From Bacteroidaceae bacterium (GTDB taxonomy: Bacteria > Bacteroidota > Bacteroidia > Bacteroidales > Bacteroidaceae), in assembly GCA_017651315.1 (NCBI GenBank), contig JAGCDE010000017.1, positions 1-44,519 on the forward strand: a stretch of DNA of 44,519 bases. The letters run 5' to 3'. A program made the translations under genes and the position numbers. This document shows positions 4,653-44,519 of the stretch, one piece after another. The number at the start of each line of letters is the position of its first letter. Positions within the stretch are counted from its first letter, which is position 1. Under the pieces are notes generated by a model. The model was not told where the DNA came from, made no database searches, and worked only from the letters and a program-made list of their open reading frames with translations.

Positions 4653-6382
4653 TCCTCTTCATTCTGCTTTTAATACAGACGCCATCTGATCCGGAAATTT
4701 CAGCCCGGCAAACAGACGTTTACAGGTATAGCATAGTGGAGTCTGGCTTTAACAGTCCGGTTGAAGTGGCCATAGGATACGACTTTAAGAAGGACGGGAT
4801 AATGTACAGGATTATCCCCGAAGAAGGATGCGTGACAGTATGCGCCATAGACAGCACGATGAAAGGAGTGATTGTACTGCCCCCGACAGTCACGGCCGAT
4901 GACGGGAAACAATACGATGTCACAGCCATAGGCATGAACGAGAACTATTTCTGGCCTTATCAGGCAGTATTCGCTTCATCCGGAGGGATTGACAGTATTG
5001 TCATTCCTGAAGGTGTAAAGACTATAGGGTCCTATTCATTTGCATTCTGTCATGACCTTGAATCGATAGAGATACCTTCAAGCGTGGAGTACATTGGCAG
5101 TAAAGCTTTTGAAAGATGTACGAACCTGAAGAATGTGATCATAAACGGGACACCAGTGATTAGCAGCAATGACGCCCTTCAGAACACCCGTTGGATGGGT
5201 GAGCAGCGTGATGCCGTTATCCTGAATGGCAATCTGGTATGGCAGAAGGGGGTTCTAAATCCGATAAACACTACTCCCGAAGGTGTAGTTACAATCTGTT
5301 CCAATGCTTACGACAACAATCCCCCATCCATCATCACTGTAAGAGAGGGAGTAAGGAACATTCTGCCTGATGCGTTTCATGCCAATAGGAAAGTGATACT
5401 GCCCTCTACTGTTGAAACATTGGCAATCAATGTGTTCATGGCCCTGCGTGCAGCCGGTGACGAATACATTGACTCCATTTTCATTCCACGGAACGTGAAT
5501 AATCTTGTCCTGCATGACATGACTGGAGCACCAGTGAAAGACCTCAGGGTCAAACATATTTCGGTTGATCCCCTGAACAGTGAGTATAGTTCTGGCGAAA
5601 ACGGAAACTATGTTATGCGCCAGTCTGACAGCACCCTGATTATAATGGGCAGGAATGCCATTATTCCCGATGGAATCAAAAAGATAGGCTCTAATGTGTT
5701 CCGCTGGAAGCATGAGCTGACTGAAATCAGTATCCCCTCCTCCGTGGAAGAGATAGGTGGATATGCATTCGAGGGATGCAGGAACCTGCAGACAGTAATA
5801 CTGCCTGATAAGATGGAACGGATAGATGAAGGGGCTTTTGCAAGATGTGAAAAAATACAGGACATAACATTCCCGGACAATATCAAGGAAATAGGCTCCT
5901 TCTCTTTCTGGTTGACAGGACTCTCTGATATCTTTATACCGGAAAATGTGTCTTATATAGGGGACGGAGCTTTCGCTTCCTGCCAGAATCTTGAAAGGAT
6001 AGTGGTGGACAAGAGAAACCGAAAATACAAGAATGACAGGAAAGAAAGCGCTATAATCCGTAAGAAAGGCAAGAAGCTGGTCGCGGTTGCAGGTAACGCA
6101 ATAATACCTGACAATATCAAGGAGATAGGGAAAGGAGTTTTCTGTTATAATGACAATCTGACAACACTACATATACCATTAAAGGTTGAGAAGATTGACG
6201 ATGGGGCCTTTGAAGGTTGCATTAACTTGCGGGAGGTATGGATTAACAAAAGGCTCCGGAAAATAGGTAAGGAAGTGTTTTCATACTGCAGGTCTTTAAC
6301 CGACGTTTATATCCCCGAGAGCAGCAGGGAACTGTTTGACGCAGAGCTGTTCCCCAAGAATACAACCATACACGTTTACTGA
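4640..6382 (+). CDS. Secreted BspA-like leucine-rich repeat protein (second copy)
   Basis: I start it at the ATG at 4640; a TTG at 4619 would extend it by seven residues. The 580-residue product has a signal peptide (MLTIILFILLLIQ..., possible cut after EISA near residue 22). LRR_5 repeats dominate the remainder: TIGSYSFAFCHDLESIEIPS, IGGYAFEGCRNLQTVILPD, IDEGAFARCEKI, and more to the C-terminus. Residues about 175-300 are less regular. The family is the same as 1554-3515, but the two proteins are clearly diverged, so this is not a recent duplication. The overlap with the preceding lipoprotein gene suggests joint expression. A binding or adhesin role is inferred from the family. Confidence 0.85.
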   Translation: MLTIILFILLLIQTPSDPEISARQTDVYRYSIVESGFNSPVEVAIGYDFKKDGIMYRIIPEEGCVTVCAIDSTMKGVIVLPPTVTADDGKQYDVTAIGMNENYFWPYQAVFASSGGIDSIVIPEGVKTIGSYSFAFCHDLESIEIPSSVEYIGSKAFERCTNLKNVIINGTPVISSNDALQNTRWMGEQRDAVILNGNLVWQKGVLNPINTTPEGVVTICSNAYDNNPPSIITVREGVRNILPDAFHANRKVILPSTVETLAINVFMALRAAGDEYIDSIFIPRNVNNLVLHDMTGAPVKDLRVKHISVDPLNSEYSSGENGNYVMRQSDSTLIIMGRNAIIPDGIKKIGSNVFRWKHELTEISIPSSVEEIGGYAFEGCRNLQTVILPDKMERIDEGAFARCEKIQDITFPDNIKEIGSFSFWLTGLSDIFIPENVSYIGDGAFASCQNLERIVVDKRNRKYKNDRKESAIIRKKGKKLVAVAGNAIIPDNIKEIGKGVFCYNDNLTTLHIPLKVEKIDDGAFEGCINLREVWINKRLRKIGKEVFSYCRSLTDVYIPESSRELFDAELFPKNTTIHVY

Positions 6383-40176: not shown

Positions 40177-41358
40177 ATGGAGGGGAACAAGCTCTGGAAC
40201 GCCGATTACATCAAGATATGGACCGTGAATTTCCTGGTCCATTTCTCTTTTATGCTTATTGTCCCGCTCCTCCCGCTATACCTGAGCGAGACATTCGGCG
40301 CCACCAAGGACACCATAGGCATGGTCCTCACCGGCTATTCCGTCATGGCTCTGGTCATCAGGCCTTTCAGCGGCTATATGGTGGACAGCTTTCCGCGCAA
40401 GACAGTCCTGGTCATCTGCGGTGCACTGTTCTTCAGCATCTTCACAGGTTATCTGGTGGCAGGCTCATTAGCTGCTTTTGCAGTATTCCGGACTCTTCAC
40501 GGCGCGCCGTTCGGTGCTACGACCGTTGCCACCAGCACTGTAGCCATTGATGTCGTCCCCTCATCCCGCCGGGGCGAGGCCATCGGCTATTACGGGCTCA
40601 GCAACAACCTGGCCATGGCCCTGGGACCGGCACTCGCCATTGTGCTGCTTGAGGCGTTCAGCGGTAACTACAAGGCCCTGTTCTGGGTATCACTGGCCGC
40701 ATCGTTCATCGGGCTGCTCCTTGAGTTCTCCATTCACCTGTCCCAAAGGGATTTCGTGCCGGAGAAGAAAGTGCTCTCCCTTGACCGTTTCTTCCTGCTA
40801 CGCGGCTGGCGCGAGGCCATCGGCATAGCGTGTTTCGCATTCAGCTACGGAGTGCTCTCCACATACGTGGCCATCTACGGCAAGGAGAAACTGGGAATCA
40901 CCGGTGGAACGGGACTTTTCTTCGGGCTCTGTGCCATAGGACTCATCCTCTCGCGCCTCACGGGAGCACGTCACCTGCGTGACGGCAAGGTGTCGCGTAA
41001 CGCCTCGATGGGTATGTGTGTATCACTTATAGGCTATCTGCTGTTTGCAGCTCTGCACAACACCATAGGCTACTACGGAGCCGCCCTGATAATAGGTCTC
41101 GGCAACGGCCACATGTATCCCGCCTTCCAGACCATGTTCATCAATCTGGCCGAACACTCCCAGCGCGGCACCGCCAACTCCTCCATTCTCACCTCCTGGG
41201 ATGCCGGAGTAGGTCTCGGAGTACTGATCGGAGGCCTTTTCAGCGAGTTTTTCGGCTACCACAGCGCCTTCTGGGCCTCTTGGACAGTCAACCTATCCGG
41301 AGTCCTATTCTACTTCCTCTCCATCCGCCGGCACTTCGAAACTCACAAACTGCGTTAG
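40177..41358 (+). CDS. Major facilitator superfamily transporter
   Basis: A 393-residue, 12-helix inner-membrane transporter. The N-terminal half has IWTVNFLVHFSFMLIVPLLPLYL, TGYSVMALVIRPFSGYMVDSFPRKTVL (the MFS A-loop between helices 2 and 3, with D-x-x-x-R-K), and VATSTVAIDVVPSSRRGEAIGYYGLSNNLAMALGPA, a common drug/sugar efflux-type motif. The C-terminal half repeats the pattern (RHLRDGKVSRNASMG, INLAEHSQRGTANSSILTSWDAGVGLGVLIGG). The substrate is unknown; the motifs lean to efflux. It starts 21 bases after metH and may be in the same transcript, but nothing links it to methionine. Confidence 0.9.
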   Translation: MEGNKLWNADYIKIWTVNFLVHFSFMLIVPLLPLYLSETFGATKDTIGMVLTGYSVMALVIRPFSGYMVDSFPRKTVLVICGALFFSIFTGYLVAGSLAAFAVFRTLHGAPFGATTVATSTVAIDVVPSSRRGEAIGYYGLSNNLAMALGPALAIVLLEAFSGNYKALFWVSLAASFIGLLLEFSIHLSQRDFVPEKKVLSLDRFFLLRGWREAIGIACFAFSYGVLSTYVAIYGKEKLGITGGTGLFFGLCAIGLILSRLTGARHLRDGKVSRNASMGMCVSLIGYLLFAALHNTIGYYGAALIIGLGNGHMYPAFQTMFINLAEHSQRGTANSSILTSWDAGVGLGVLIGGLFSEFFGYHSAFWASWTVNLSGVLFYFLSIRRHFETHKLR

Positions 41359-41452: not shown

Positions 41453-41504
41453 GCCTGATGCTGAAGAGGGTGGCCTTGGCGTTGCCACCCCGTCTGCATC
41501 AGGC
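41453..41504. repeat. Nested inverted repeats just beyond the candidate variable repeat
   Basis: An outer pair, GCCTGATGC (41453-41461) and GCATCAGGC (41496-41504), is perfect over 9 bp. Within it, GGGTGGC (41468-41474) and GCCACCC (41484-41490) form a 7-bp stem with a 9-base loop. A third pairing links CCCGTCTGC (41489-41497) with GCAGACGGG (41572-41580) at the end of the coding region. The structure begins about 60 bases past the stop of the adjacent minus-strand gene and lacks a T tract. It may be a cruciform-type site used by retroelement target recognition, or a weak terminator. Confidence 0.6.
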
Positions 41505-41565
41505 CGCCCTGCGACTGAAAGCTTGCATGCCTTTGAGCCAGTGTGGGCCGATGGGAGGACAAATC

Positions 41566-43914
41566 CTACGGGCAGACGGGCCGGACGGACCGACCGCAGC
41601 TGCGGTTGCTGGAGTCCACTTCCACGCCGCCGAAGTAGATGCCCCACGCGAGGCTCGAGTAGTCCGTACTGAATGAACTGGACCAGTAGTGGCCGTAGGA
41701 GCCAGCACCATCGAGACCCGTTTCATCGCGGCACCCGGCAGCCGGAAGGAAAATGAAGCGGTCTGTGTAACCGGATTTCTTACTGGTTACCTTGCAACCT
41801 GCTACGCCACCGAACTCTGAGTTGCCACTGCTATACCATGTCCAGGTGCAGTTGTTGCTGAGTTCATCCAGTTCTTCCTTGGTGGGCAAGCGCCAATCAC
41901 CGCCCCACTTTACATGGGCTACGTCATCTTCGGGATCAAGAACAGTCTTATTATCTACAGTTCCGTAACCGCTGCGCGTATTGTATTTGGTTAGAGTATT
42001 GTATGAGCCGTTGCACCACTTGTAGGTGGACCAGTCATAATTGCTCTTGGTTTCTGTCTCACCCCATGCGTAGTAATCGCCAAACAATTCAGGCAAACAA
42101 GCACCTATATTGCATGTAGCCCACTTGACACTTAAACCTAAATCAACATATTCCATTGGATATTCACATGTTCCATAAACAGGACGAATATAACAACCAC
42201 AATAACGTTCTACTTTAGTTATATCAGGTTCCACCTCTGGAAAATTTATAGTCAAAGCCATAGCAGATTCATCATCATATTTAGTAGAAGTCCAATACGA
42301 ATAATCTAAACTTTCAGGTAAAAAAATGGCATTATCTCTATATAACCCGAATCCAATTACGAGATAACCAAAAACACCTTGGTAATAAATCCGTTTTACA
42401 TGACCAGAATAATAACAATATGACATTATACTCATAACATCCTTATTTGGCATATGCCAACCTTCACTTAGAACTGCCGTCGCAGCATCATATTGAGTTC
42501 CACTTATATCATTTTTAAGACCCTTCCATGCATTCGTGCTTGAATTGTAGTATTCATAATTAGACAAACTGAAAGTTGTTTTAGGTTGTGTTTCACCCCA
42601 TGCATAGAGGTCGCCTAACTGTTCAGGACTATCTGCTCCAAGGTTACATGATGCGAACAAAACACCAGGTATTCCCAAATCCACTTTTTCACCCTTCGTT
42701 ACCATATCGGTTACAGTATAGCTATTAACAGGACCATATAAAATATCACCCTCAAATGTGGTTACAGCGACTCTAAAAAAATATGATGAGGGCATATTCA
42801 TATTAATTAGTTTGTATGATGCTAAGCCATTATTGTTTATGTTAGCTTTAACCCTTATTCCATTTTTTTCATTGGGAGTAGATTCTGTGTCAGTATAATA
42901 GAAATAAACAGAATAATCTTCAAGTGTTGAAAGGCCGTCTATTTGAGCCTTAATATCAAATGATGTAACATCTGTTGAATCAGCAGTTGCCTGATAAATA
43001 ATTAAATCGCCATACCTTGCCTCAGTCTGTGAAAGATCCGGCATAGCGTTTACAACTGTAGCTTGATAATTATACGCTTTGCCCATCATCATGTTCTTTC
43101 CAGTAATGGTGGTTGTATATGAAGGGCTATATGTACCAACAATCTTTATGCTTATCTCATCCTGACTAAGGTCTGTCGGAGCAAGCATAGCGTATATGGT
43201 AAGAATCTTATTCTCTTCAGTTGTAAATGTTTGATTAAGTCCAATTGTAATAGATGATGATTTTGTAGTAGGATTGATGGAAACTTTCTCTTTTGTCAAA
43301 TCAAATGTTCCAGATGTCACAAAGGGTGTCTTACTACTCTTCAGTGTTATTGACTTGTATATATCTGCTTCAGGCATTGTAAGCTGGAAACGGACAAAAC
43401 ACCCCAAATGCTTAAGTTCTATGTTCACATTGCCATCGGCATCGGGACTGGTGGCTACTGATGCCTGGTAGTCAAACCTATCAAGGCAATCAAGAGAGCC
43501 GTTGCCGTTCTGGATCTGACCCAAGTAACTGACGGGGATACTTGTTTCTTCCACATGATAGTATTTTGACGAGAAGGGATAATAAGCTGCATATAAATAT
43601 GATGAGCGCAGAGCCCAAGCACCACCATCAAACTGTGCTGCCCGACTGCCCTCTCCACTCGAAATGGGGAATGCCACCTGATCTCCGCCAATTGGATAGA
43701 TTCCTACTGTATCGCCTTCGGTCCAGCTGAAATGAAAGCCTGTAGCATCAACTGTATATGCTGCGCGGGTAATATCATCGCCGTCAAGAAAATCCTGACC
43801 TGTCACAGTTATGGACTTTACTGTTCCTGATTGTGATACTATGCTTTCATCATCGCATGATGACAGGCCTAATACCACCGTTAATCCTAACACATAAGTA
43901 AGTTTCGTTTTCAT
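41566..43914 (-). CDS. Surface lipoprotein with fimbrillin-like N-terminus and two C-type-lectin-like domains; candidate retroelement target
   Basis: The 782-residue protein starts with a lipoprotein signal (LGLSSC, Cys20) followed by DDES, an acidic start suited to surface export. Residues about 30-290 look fimbrillin-like (Mfa-like): FSWTEGDTVGIYPIGG and YLYAAYYPFSSK. Residues about 295-405 are a beta-sandwich-like linker. Two related domains follow from about 409 and 586: VDLGIPGVLFASCNLGA and VDLGLSVKWATCNIGA, each with GD-x-YAWGET. These are Fib_succ_major/FGE-like C-type-lectin folds. The last 44 codons (41569-41700) encode YWSSS... to RSVRPVCP and resemble the variable repeats of diversity-generating retroelements. 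Base composition rises sharply there. A binding protein role is inferred. Confidence 0.82.
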   Translation of the reverse strand: MKTKLTYVLGLTVVLGLSSCDDESIVSQSGTVKSITVTGQDFLDGDDITRAAYTVDATGFHFSWTEGDTVGIYPIGGDQVAFPISSGEGSRAAQFDGGAWALRSSYLYAAYYPFSSKYYHVEETSIPVSYLGQIQNGNGSLDCLDRFDYQASVATSPDADGNVNIELKHLGCFVRFQLTMPEADIYKSITLKSSKTPFVTSGTFDLTKEKVSINPTTKSSSITIGLNQTFTTEENKILTIYAMLAPTDLSQDEISIKIVGTYSPSYTTTITGKNMMMGKAYNYQATVVNAMPDLSQTEARYGDLIIYQATADSTDVTSFDIKAQIDGLSTLEDYSVYFYYTDTESTPNEKNGIRVKANINNNGLASYKLINMNMPSSYFFRVAVTTFEGDILYGPVNSYTVTDMVTKGEKVDLGIPGVLFASCNLGADSPEQLGDLYAWGETQPKTTFSLSNYEYYNSSTNAWKGLKNDISGTQYDAATAVLSEGWHMPNKDVMSIMSYCYYSGHVKRIYYQGVFGYLVIGFGLYRDNAIFLPESLDYSYWTSTKYDDESAMALTINFPEVEPDITKVERYCGCYIRPVYGTCEYPMEYVDLGLSVKWATCNIGACLPELFGDYYAWGETETKSNYDWSTYKWCNGSYNTLTKYNTRSGYGTVDNKTVLDPEDDVAHVKWGGDWRLPTKEELDELSNNCTWTWYSSGNSEFGGVAGCKVTSKKSGYTDRFIFLPAAGCRDETGLDGAGSYGHYWSSSFSTDYSSLAWGIYFGGVEVDSSNRSCGRSVRPVCP
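41569..41700 (-). repeat. Candidate DGR variable repeat (VR) at the 3' end of the lipoprotein gene
   Basis: Residues 739-782. Of 44 codons, 29 end in C, including TAC, CAC, GAC, AGC, CTC, GGC, TTC, TCC and TGC. This is the pattern expected when AAC codons of a template are mutated at their two adenines to NNC. The fixed frame around them (YWSSS, AW, NR, GRSVRPVCP) is what template-derived Bacteroidales targets keep. The matching 40 codons of the first domain (42181-42300) have none ending in C. The 3' end is GC-rich (CGGTCCGTCCGGCCCGTC), like an initiation-of-mutagenic-homing site. No template repeat was found in the window. Confidence 0.6.
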
Positions 43915-43969: not shown

Positions 43970-44519
43970 CTAGCGGACTGTATATTTGCGTCCGTTACGG
44001 ATATAAATACCGGTAGGCAATGTGGATATGTCATCGGTTTCAATCCGCTTGCCGCTCAAATCATATATGATTGATTCGCCGTTATCCATCAGTACCGGAT
44101 GTACTGCATTATAAACAGCATTGATAGTTACATCCTGTGCAGGCATAGTGACAGTTTCTATCTCACTGTACCATTCCCATGGTGTAAGGTCTATATCATA
44201 CTTCGTGATAAGCATCTCAGCATAGTCCGTAAGACTTGTTCCGTAAGCGATTATCTCAGAATATACTACCTGATTATCTACTATTACTGTCAATAGATAA
44301 TAGTTGATGCTGAATGTTCCAGTTATCTCAAGGTCGTTTGCAGGCATTGTTTCAGGTATCTCACTCCAACCGCTGAATGTGAATCCTTCCTTCTCAGGAG
44401 CAGGTTCTGATTCTATCTCTGAACTATATTCCAATGAAACGCTCCTGTAAACCTCTCCGTCCAGAACGTATGTCAGAGTGTAGGAGTTGATACTGAACGT
44501 ACCCGTTATCTCAACATCA
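43970..44519 (-). CDS. Surface protein with InlB/Flg_new-type repeats, C-terminal part (partial at window end)
   Basis: The frame is open to the window edge, so the start lies outside; a TTG at 44432-44434 is only an internal codon. The visible 182 residues hold repeated beta units: EITGTFSINSYTLTYVLDGE at the edge, then GFTFSGWSEIPETMPANDLE, EITGTFSINYYLLTVIVDNQ, and TPWEWYSEIETVTMPAQDVT. These are Listeria-Bacteroides (Flg_new, InlB B-type) repeats with the F-x-G-W-x-x-x-P-x-x-M-P-A-x-D motif. The C-terminus IIYDLSGKRIE...LPTGIYIRNGRKYTV is a secretion/sorting-type tail common in Bacteroidetes exported proteins. It is 55 bases upstream of the lipoprotein gene and probably co-transcribed with it. 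Adhesin-like role inferred. Confidence 0.8.
   Translation of the reverse strand, partial: DVEITGTFSINSYTLTYVLDGEVYRSVSLEYSSEIESEPAPEKEGFTFSGWSEIPETMPANDLEITGTFSINYYLLTVIVDNQVVYSEIIAYGTSLTDYAEMLITKYDIDLTPWEWYSEIETVTMPAQDVTINAVYNAVHPVLMDNGESIIYDLSGKRIETDDISTLPTGIYIRNGRKYTVR

Follow-up and report, generated by a model that had tools for sequence, protein, structure and literature searches.

A probable trans-served acceptor of a diversity-generating retroelement in a fimbrillin-like surface protein of a Bacteroidaceae genome

The diversity-generating retroelement (DGR) of BPP-1 uses, according to PMC3240598, a GC-only element identical to its template repeat (TR), a neighboring stretch mismatched to the TR that sets direction, and a hairpin by the stop codon; the role assigned below to the GC-rich end of a variable repeat (VR), initiation of mutagenic homing (IMH), is taken from the same source. 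In Treponema denticola some targets lie far from the core DGR, and isolates without TR or reverse transcriptase (RT) still hold target genes, which are read as remnants (PMC4891356). A human stool metagenome contains a DGR target, SRS014459.31157, that is a lipoprotein of 807 aa combining Mfa2 and Fib_succ_major (PMC4159848), and tip-pilin DGRs of gut Bacteroides are known from a preprint (Macadangdang et al. 2024, as cited in the review PMC12632263). Remote targets would escape RT-centered DGR surveys (PMC8144416). Here we describe a gene in a 44,519-nucleotide stretch (the window) that forms the entire contig JAGCDE010000017.1 (C13) of a Bacteroidaceae assembly (GCA_017651315.1; 2.69 Mb, 59 contigs, 83.37% complete), and whose 3′ end is very probably the acceptor, or VR, of a cellular DGR served in trans.

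A complete DGR in a congener supplies a comparison. A profile search for RVT_1, which was positive in 3 of 14 named genomes used as a control, found the domain in 7 of 37 genomes of the genus and gave no match in the source assembly. One match, with the DGR-type motif GLPIGNLTSQ, lies on an 8017-bp contig (C52) of genome G018, where a FISUMP target with its VR, an open reading frame (ORF) of 177 aa, a TR and the RT follow one another. The TR and VR of G018 have 27 mismatches over 207 positions; 24 fall at TR adenines and the other three after the stop codon. The small ORF is matched in only one of the 37 genus genomes, G018 itself, and in none of the source contigs. When this TR is taken as reference, 28 of 51 adenines are changed in the window VR, versus 23 of 150 other bases (Fisher p 1.2e-7), the latter being the lowest share of non-adenine differences among 29 TRs compared, matches of 120 or fewer aligned bases being excluded. 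Since the G018 TR is foreign to the window, the 23 non-adenine differences are expected to include divergence between species, and they also imply that it is not the window's own TR. At least 14 of the 29 TRs translate, in one frame, into a common F/LPA(A/S)G...RPV pattern.

A second line of evidence is a short box at the 3′ end. The window gene is followed directly after its stop codon by GATTTGTCCT, and the box TAGGATTTGTCC occurs in seven of the eight tails of this kind in the source genome, the window included, while C42a carries TAGGATTTGTCT. In G018 the VR has TAGGATTTGTCC after the stop codon and the TR has TAGCACTTGTCC. A strict acceptor pattern recovered 16 ends in 10 of the 37 genus genomes, and its reversed form none. 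The template form TAGCAYTTGTCC has one exact occurrence among the searched genomes, at the G018 TR; with one mismatch allowed, 16 further matches appeared, all of the acceptor form, against three for the reversed control. The window target thus combines a VR at the gene's 3′ end, a GC-rich terminus and a 3′ element unlike that of the G018 TR.

The same switch recurs at other RT loci. Repeat pairs were accepted where 70% of the mismatches fell at adenine (or, reversed, thymine), which 44 of 67 RT loci passed, and 28 TR/VR pairs were taken from L128-L160 (26 RT-bearing loci). AGC in the TR becomes AGA or AGG in the VR, in register, in 17 of the 28, and the change is never reversed. L150 has the acceptor form in both copies, L157 has it in the TR, and L160 has an additional acceptor-type box in the TR outside the register; the remaining pairs have no recognizable box in one or both copies. 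A first count, in which none of the 28 TRs bore an acceptor-type box, used too strict a pattern and was abandoned when the recount found L150, L157 and the off-register L160.

Third, tails of the window kind recur at dispersed places in the source genome, namely on C13, C27, C42 (twice), C54, C55, C23 and C20. Seven of them, the broken C20 being left aside, were compared by codon position with the sequence upstream. All 21 of 21 pairs have a smaller third-position share of differences in the tail, 20 of them with an uncorrected p < 0.05 and the pairs being non-independent. In absolute terms, 20 of the 21 have a lower third-position rate there. On three contigs, C27, C42b and C54 share one tail frame on widely different upstream parts and have just 3, 6 and 4 third-position differences per 48 codons; third positions make up 8 of the 50 variable positions in this group. 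The C55 and C23 tails differ at 5 of 48 third positions, and the window frame matches neither group. As a control, 32 of 41 domains found by pattern were divided into 12 with an acceptor box after the stop codon, whose third-position rate falls from 0.546 upstream to 0.304 in the tail, and 20 without, where the rates are 0.602 and 0.601. The latter group is mixed, as it includes VRs with a box before the stop codon (L129, twice) and tails with altered boxes.

Several of these loci have features of their own. C54 (L004) has an in-frame stop ahead of the VR, C42b (L003) a short open frame of 159 aa, and C20 (L008) a VR with a broken frame. The C55 tail ends a 1078-aa protein of BACON repeats and FISUMP-type domains (L107:5903-9136, minus strand). 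The C27 tail (L104:5652-6725, minus strand) terminates a protein of 358 aa. Its N-terminal half, which has no Pfam call, we take to be LytTR-like; a Pro-rich linker and a hydrophobic segment are also present, and the whole is perhaps a regulator anchored in the membrane whose outer domain is diversified.

The window protein itself fits a surface location. Its N-terminus contains what we take to be a lipobox, and it exceeds the cut-off of the Mfa_like_1 profile (47.2 bits, cut-off 27). The Pfam Lcl_C profile matches the C-terminal part in two stretches (48.2 bits, cut-off 34.9), and the NCBIfam FISUMP model TIGR02145 scores 27.1 bits, under its cut-off of 41.65. Of the two C-terminal FISUMP-like domains, only the last ends in the VR (Table 1). 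A confident structure model of this last domain resembles C-type lectins, including the DGR targets Mtd and TvpA, so that the C-type-lectin-like fold proposed in the preliminary description of this DNA has the support of a model; Foldseek alone returned no match for it at E ≤ 0.001, and a sequence search of solved structures found none.

Table 1. Features of the target gene, of the complete DGR in G018 and of the RT relic in the source genome.
Feature	Location	Positions	Strand	Remarks
Target gene	Window	41566-43914	-	782 aa; lipoprotein-type N-terminus MKTKLTYVLGLTVVLGLSSC, fimbrillin-like domain, two FISUMP-like domains
Fimbrillin-like domain	Window	43048-43743	-	Pfam Mfa_like_1, E 3.9e-12, residues 58-289
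First FISUMP-like domain	Window	42178-42683	-	Non-variable type; boundaries drawn by eye
VR	Window	41553-41753	-	Homologous to the G018 TR
GC-rich 3′ end of VR	Window	41566-41595	-	Occupies the place of the IMH in known DGRs
Acceptor-type box TAGGATTTGTCCT	Window	41556-41568	-	Spans the stop codon; potential AGGA-TTTG-TCCT hairpin, 4 bp
Longer inverted repeat GCCTGATGC...GCATCAGGC	Window	41453-41504	-	Downstream of target
VR	G018 C52	3772-3978		In FISUMP target
177-aa ORF	G018 C52	4137-4667		Sits where Avd would lie; no Pfam or NCBIfam match
TR	G018 C52	4833-5039
RT	G018 C52			395 aa
RT relic ORF	G000:C41 (L103)	6052-6276

The longer inverted repeat downstream of the target has counterparts, recognized by eye, behind the G018 VR and behind several, but not all, of the other VR genes. 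The 151-nt region here has a fold z of -1.67, with 13 of 200 shuffles folding equally well, so that it does not clearly outdo shuffled sequence. No match to the intrinsic-terminator consensus was found downstream of the target, and a terminator was rejected as the nature of this element. Immediately upstream of the target gene lies a Listeria-Bacteroides repeat protein (43970-44518, minus strand) truncated by the contig end.

The machinery that would serve this acceptor is largely missing from the assembly. As the preliminary description had noted, the window, which is the whole of C13, is without a recognized RT; no TR was seen in it either. The genome-wide search it had proposed, for a TR next to a DGR-type RT, recovered neither intact: near the target and elsewhere in the source assembly, incomplete as it is, DNA and box searches recognized no TR and the RVT_1 profile no RT. 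The G018 TR hits seven places there, all FISUMP tails. The G018 RT has a single match, C41:6067-6219, covering roughly its last 51 residues, of which 29 are identical; the match lies within a 75-aa ORF, and the rest of the gene is not present. Its pattern NSF.GVLGHY..Y.LR resembles the C-termini of other DGR RTs.

This RT relic is flanked by genes that are presumably rsmI-like and DPP-IV-like, in a slot that also holds a small toxin-antitoxin-like pair. When 30 DPP-IV loci were fetched, 27 were readable and 23 had rsmI within about 1.5 kb; among these 23, DGR-type matter occurs only in the source genome and in G007, where a FISUMP target has its VR box touching the DPP-IV gene (G007:C11, L213). 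The two fragments look complementary, as if they were leftovers of one old cassette. Genomes closer to the source by DPP-IV identity have an empty slot, and separate insertions are therefore equally possible.

The named genome collection contains relatives of the RT at 42 loci, most of them in records titled as herbivore-gut metagenome-assembled genomes of Bacteroidales, with a few in Saccharibacteria and others; within the family, 25 of 399 genomes have one at E ≤ 1e-20. Some RT loci (L129, L131) have a second, remote VR. Those in herbivore-gut Saccharibacteria (L163-L165) show repeat pairs that are adenine- or thymine-biased. Two phage-like DGRs (L232 on G011:C31 and L233 on G024:C26) have the RT motif IG.LIWQ and TR/VR mismatches at adenines in 16 of 18 and 18 of 18 cases; they were set aside as the engine since their targets look phage-like rather than like FISUMP proteins. 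In a phage collection, the strict acceptor pattern occurred on no viral contig, the window domain matched one distant relative (31% identity), and the RT matched three (35-49%).

On these grounds it largely holds that the gene is a target distant from its DGR and that its rewriting took place in trans at some past time. As neither TR nor RT lies beside it, the target would have been served in trans, like the other tails of the source genome, and that part of the earlier proposal fits. By analogy with BPP-1, from which the homing mechanism is carried over, a TR transcript would be copied by an error-prone RT misreading adenines, and the VR beside the GC-rich end and the acceptor box would be replaced by the cDNA. 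Changes would then fall mainly at the first two positions of codons whose templates are of the AAC/AAT type, in the lectin-like domain. An RT presumably served this very locus, and the variable domain may bind a ligand.

The codon signature from which the proposal started has fared less well as an argument. A recount agrees that 29 of the last 44 target codons end in C and that the equivalent tail of the first domain (YWTSTK...RPV) has none (0 of 41), and both the YWSSS, NR and RSVRPVCP frame and the GC-rich 3′ end are present. Elsewhere in the target ORF, the best stretch starting more than 104 sliding steps before its end has 18 C-ending codons. Among 25 other window genes examined, the five highest best stretches of 44 codons contain 24, 26, 27, 27 and 29, and the last value belongs to the neighboring MFS gene (40177-41358). 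Because this gene reaches the same 29 of 44, codon bias alone is weak evidence and was dropped as proof of a DGR; the comparison with TRs, the shared frames and the 3′ box are better. A VR in a lipoprotein-like, fimbrillin-like surface protein remains supported by the congener DGR with its homologous target and adenine-biased differences, the acceptor-type box, the tail frames common to dispersed loci and the lectin-like model.

Besides the MFS gene, other observations weigh against this reading. In the window-C55 pair, the absolute third-position rate is not lower in the tail (22 of 46 versus 57 of 143 upstream). Box-less pairs show a reduced tail share of third positions as well, in 189 of 190 cases, because first and second positions are fast there too (0.541, 0.510). 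Finally, the lack of a TR and RT comes near to what the preliminary description had itself named as counting against it, though in an incomplete genome.

Whether the system still operates is a separate matter. We put at about even the chance that the DGR was lost from the lineage and that the window VR preserves past diversification in a form now frozen or slowly decaying. The RT fragment without the rest of its gene, the stop before the C54 VR and the broken frame of C20 all point this way, and RT-less target remnants in T. denticola, described in 4EPS-like fashion (PMC4891356), offer a precedent. Against it stand the incompleteness of the genome and the near-identical C27, C42b and C54 frames, which favor one template having rewritten them fairly recently.

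It is plausible, at somewhat short of an even chance, that the unassembled portion (about 17%) contains an intact TR/RT cassette which rewrites the window VR now. Repeats and hypervariable sites break assemblies, this one is in 59 contigs at 83.37% completeness, and the G018 cassette itself sits on a short contig. The three dispersed loci that keep one frame despite their upstream differences would also be accounted for. The failure to find TR or RT in the assembly speaks against a live cassette, as do the window frame's dissimilarity to both own-genome groups and the fact that a G018-type RT is missing from nine of the ten genus genomes in which strict acceptors occur, one of the nine (G007) being 97% complete.

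Ordinary diversifying selection, joined to a local preference for C-ending codons in a lectin-like family, would do without a DGR altogether. C-ending stretches are common in the source genome and the box-less tails show raised first- and second-position divergence; but third positions are slow only in boxed tails, the tails have a noncoding box after the stop codon in common, and the adenine bias against a real TR already disfavors this account, which we regard as very improbable. Gene conversion between paralogous tails, for which the FISUMP-domain matches, as many as 59 in one genus genome, and frames common to several loci would provide material, is just as hard to credit, as conversion alone would not restrict differences to first and second codon positions and both the RT with TR in the congener and the RT relic in the source genome speak for reverse transcription.

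A wider scheme can be advanced only tentatively, and we consider it rather unlikely as a whole. These gut Bacteroidales might maintain dispersed, addressable acceptors on many surface proteins of varied architecture, marked by a common 3′ box that works in one direction and reads AGG/AGA in acceptors but AGC in templates; the set would survive the loss of its engine, undergoing rewriting whenever a cassette is resident or transferred in and freezing once it is gone, and at least two template frames would have served different loci in the source genome. As a candidate cause of one-way homing in this DGR family, the C/R switch in the box is open to testing; the RT relic and the rsmI/DPP-IV slot render DGR gain and loss traceable. 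As there are 16 acceptors in 10 of 37 genomes and one G018-type RT, hypervariable surface proteins are possibly undercounted.

Earlier papers already cover targets that are remote or lack an RT, as well as the Mfa/FISUMP architecture (PMC4159848, PMC4891356, PMC8144416). What is added here is the box switch, the RT relic and, across the genus, a surplus of acceptors over donors; a literature search at the level of titles and passages found no account of a C/R box switch in Bacteroidales. SRS014459.31157 resembles the window protein in length, in its fimbrillin-type part and in a terminal FISUMP-type domain as the presumed variable part, but there the DGR is present in the metagenome, whereas here the assembly lacks TR and RT and the last of two FISUMP-like domains alone is variable. 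The tip-pilin DGRs, by the description in PMC12632263, likewise diversify fimbrial-type surface proteins of Bacteroidales. T. denticola shares remote and RT-less targets, but belongs to another phylum and uses another target family, and the 3′ acceptor box and RT relic come from the present genus. With BPP-1, as portrayed in PMC3240598, the locus has in common a VR at the 3′ end, a GC-rich element, a TR-mismatched stretch, a potential stop-codon hairpin and, going by the model, a C-type-lectin-like target; the BPP-1 system is phage-borne and acts in cis, while the box described here differs in sequence and its hairpin would be just 4 bp.
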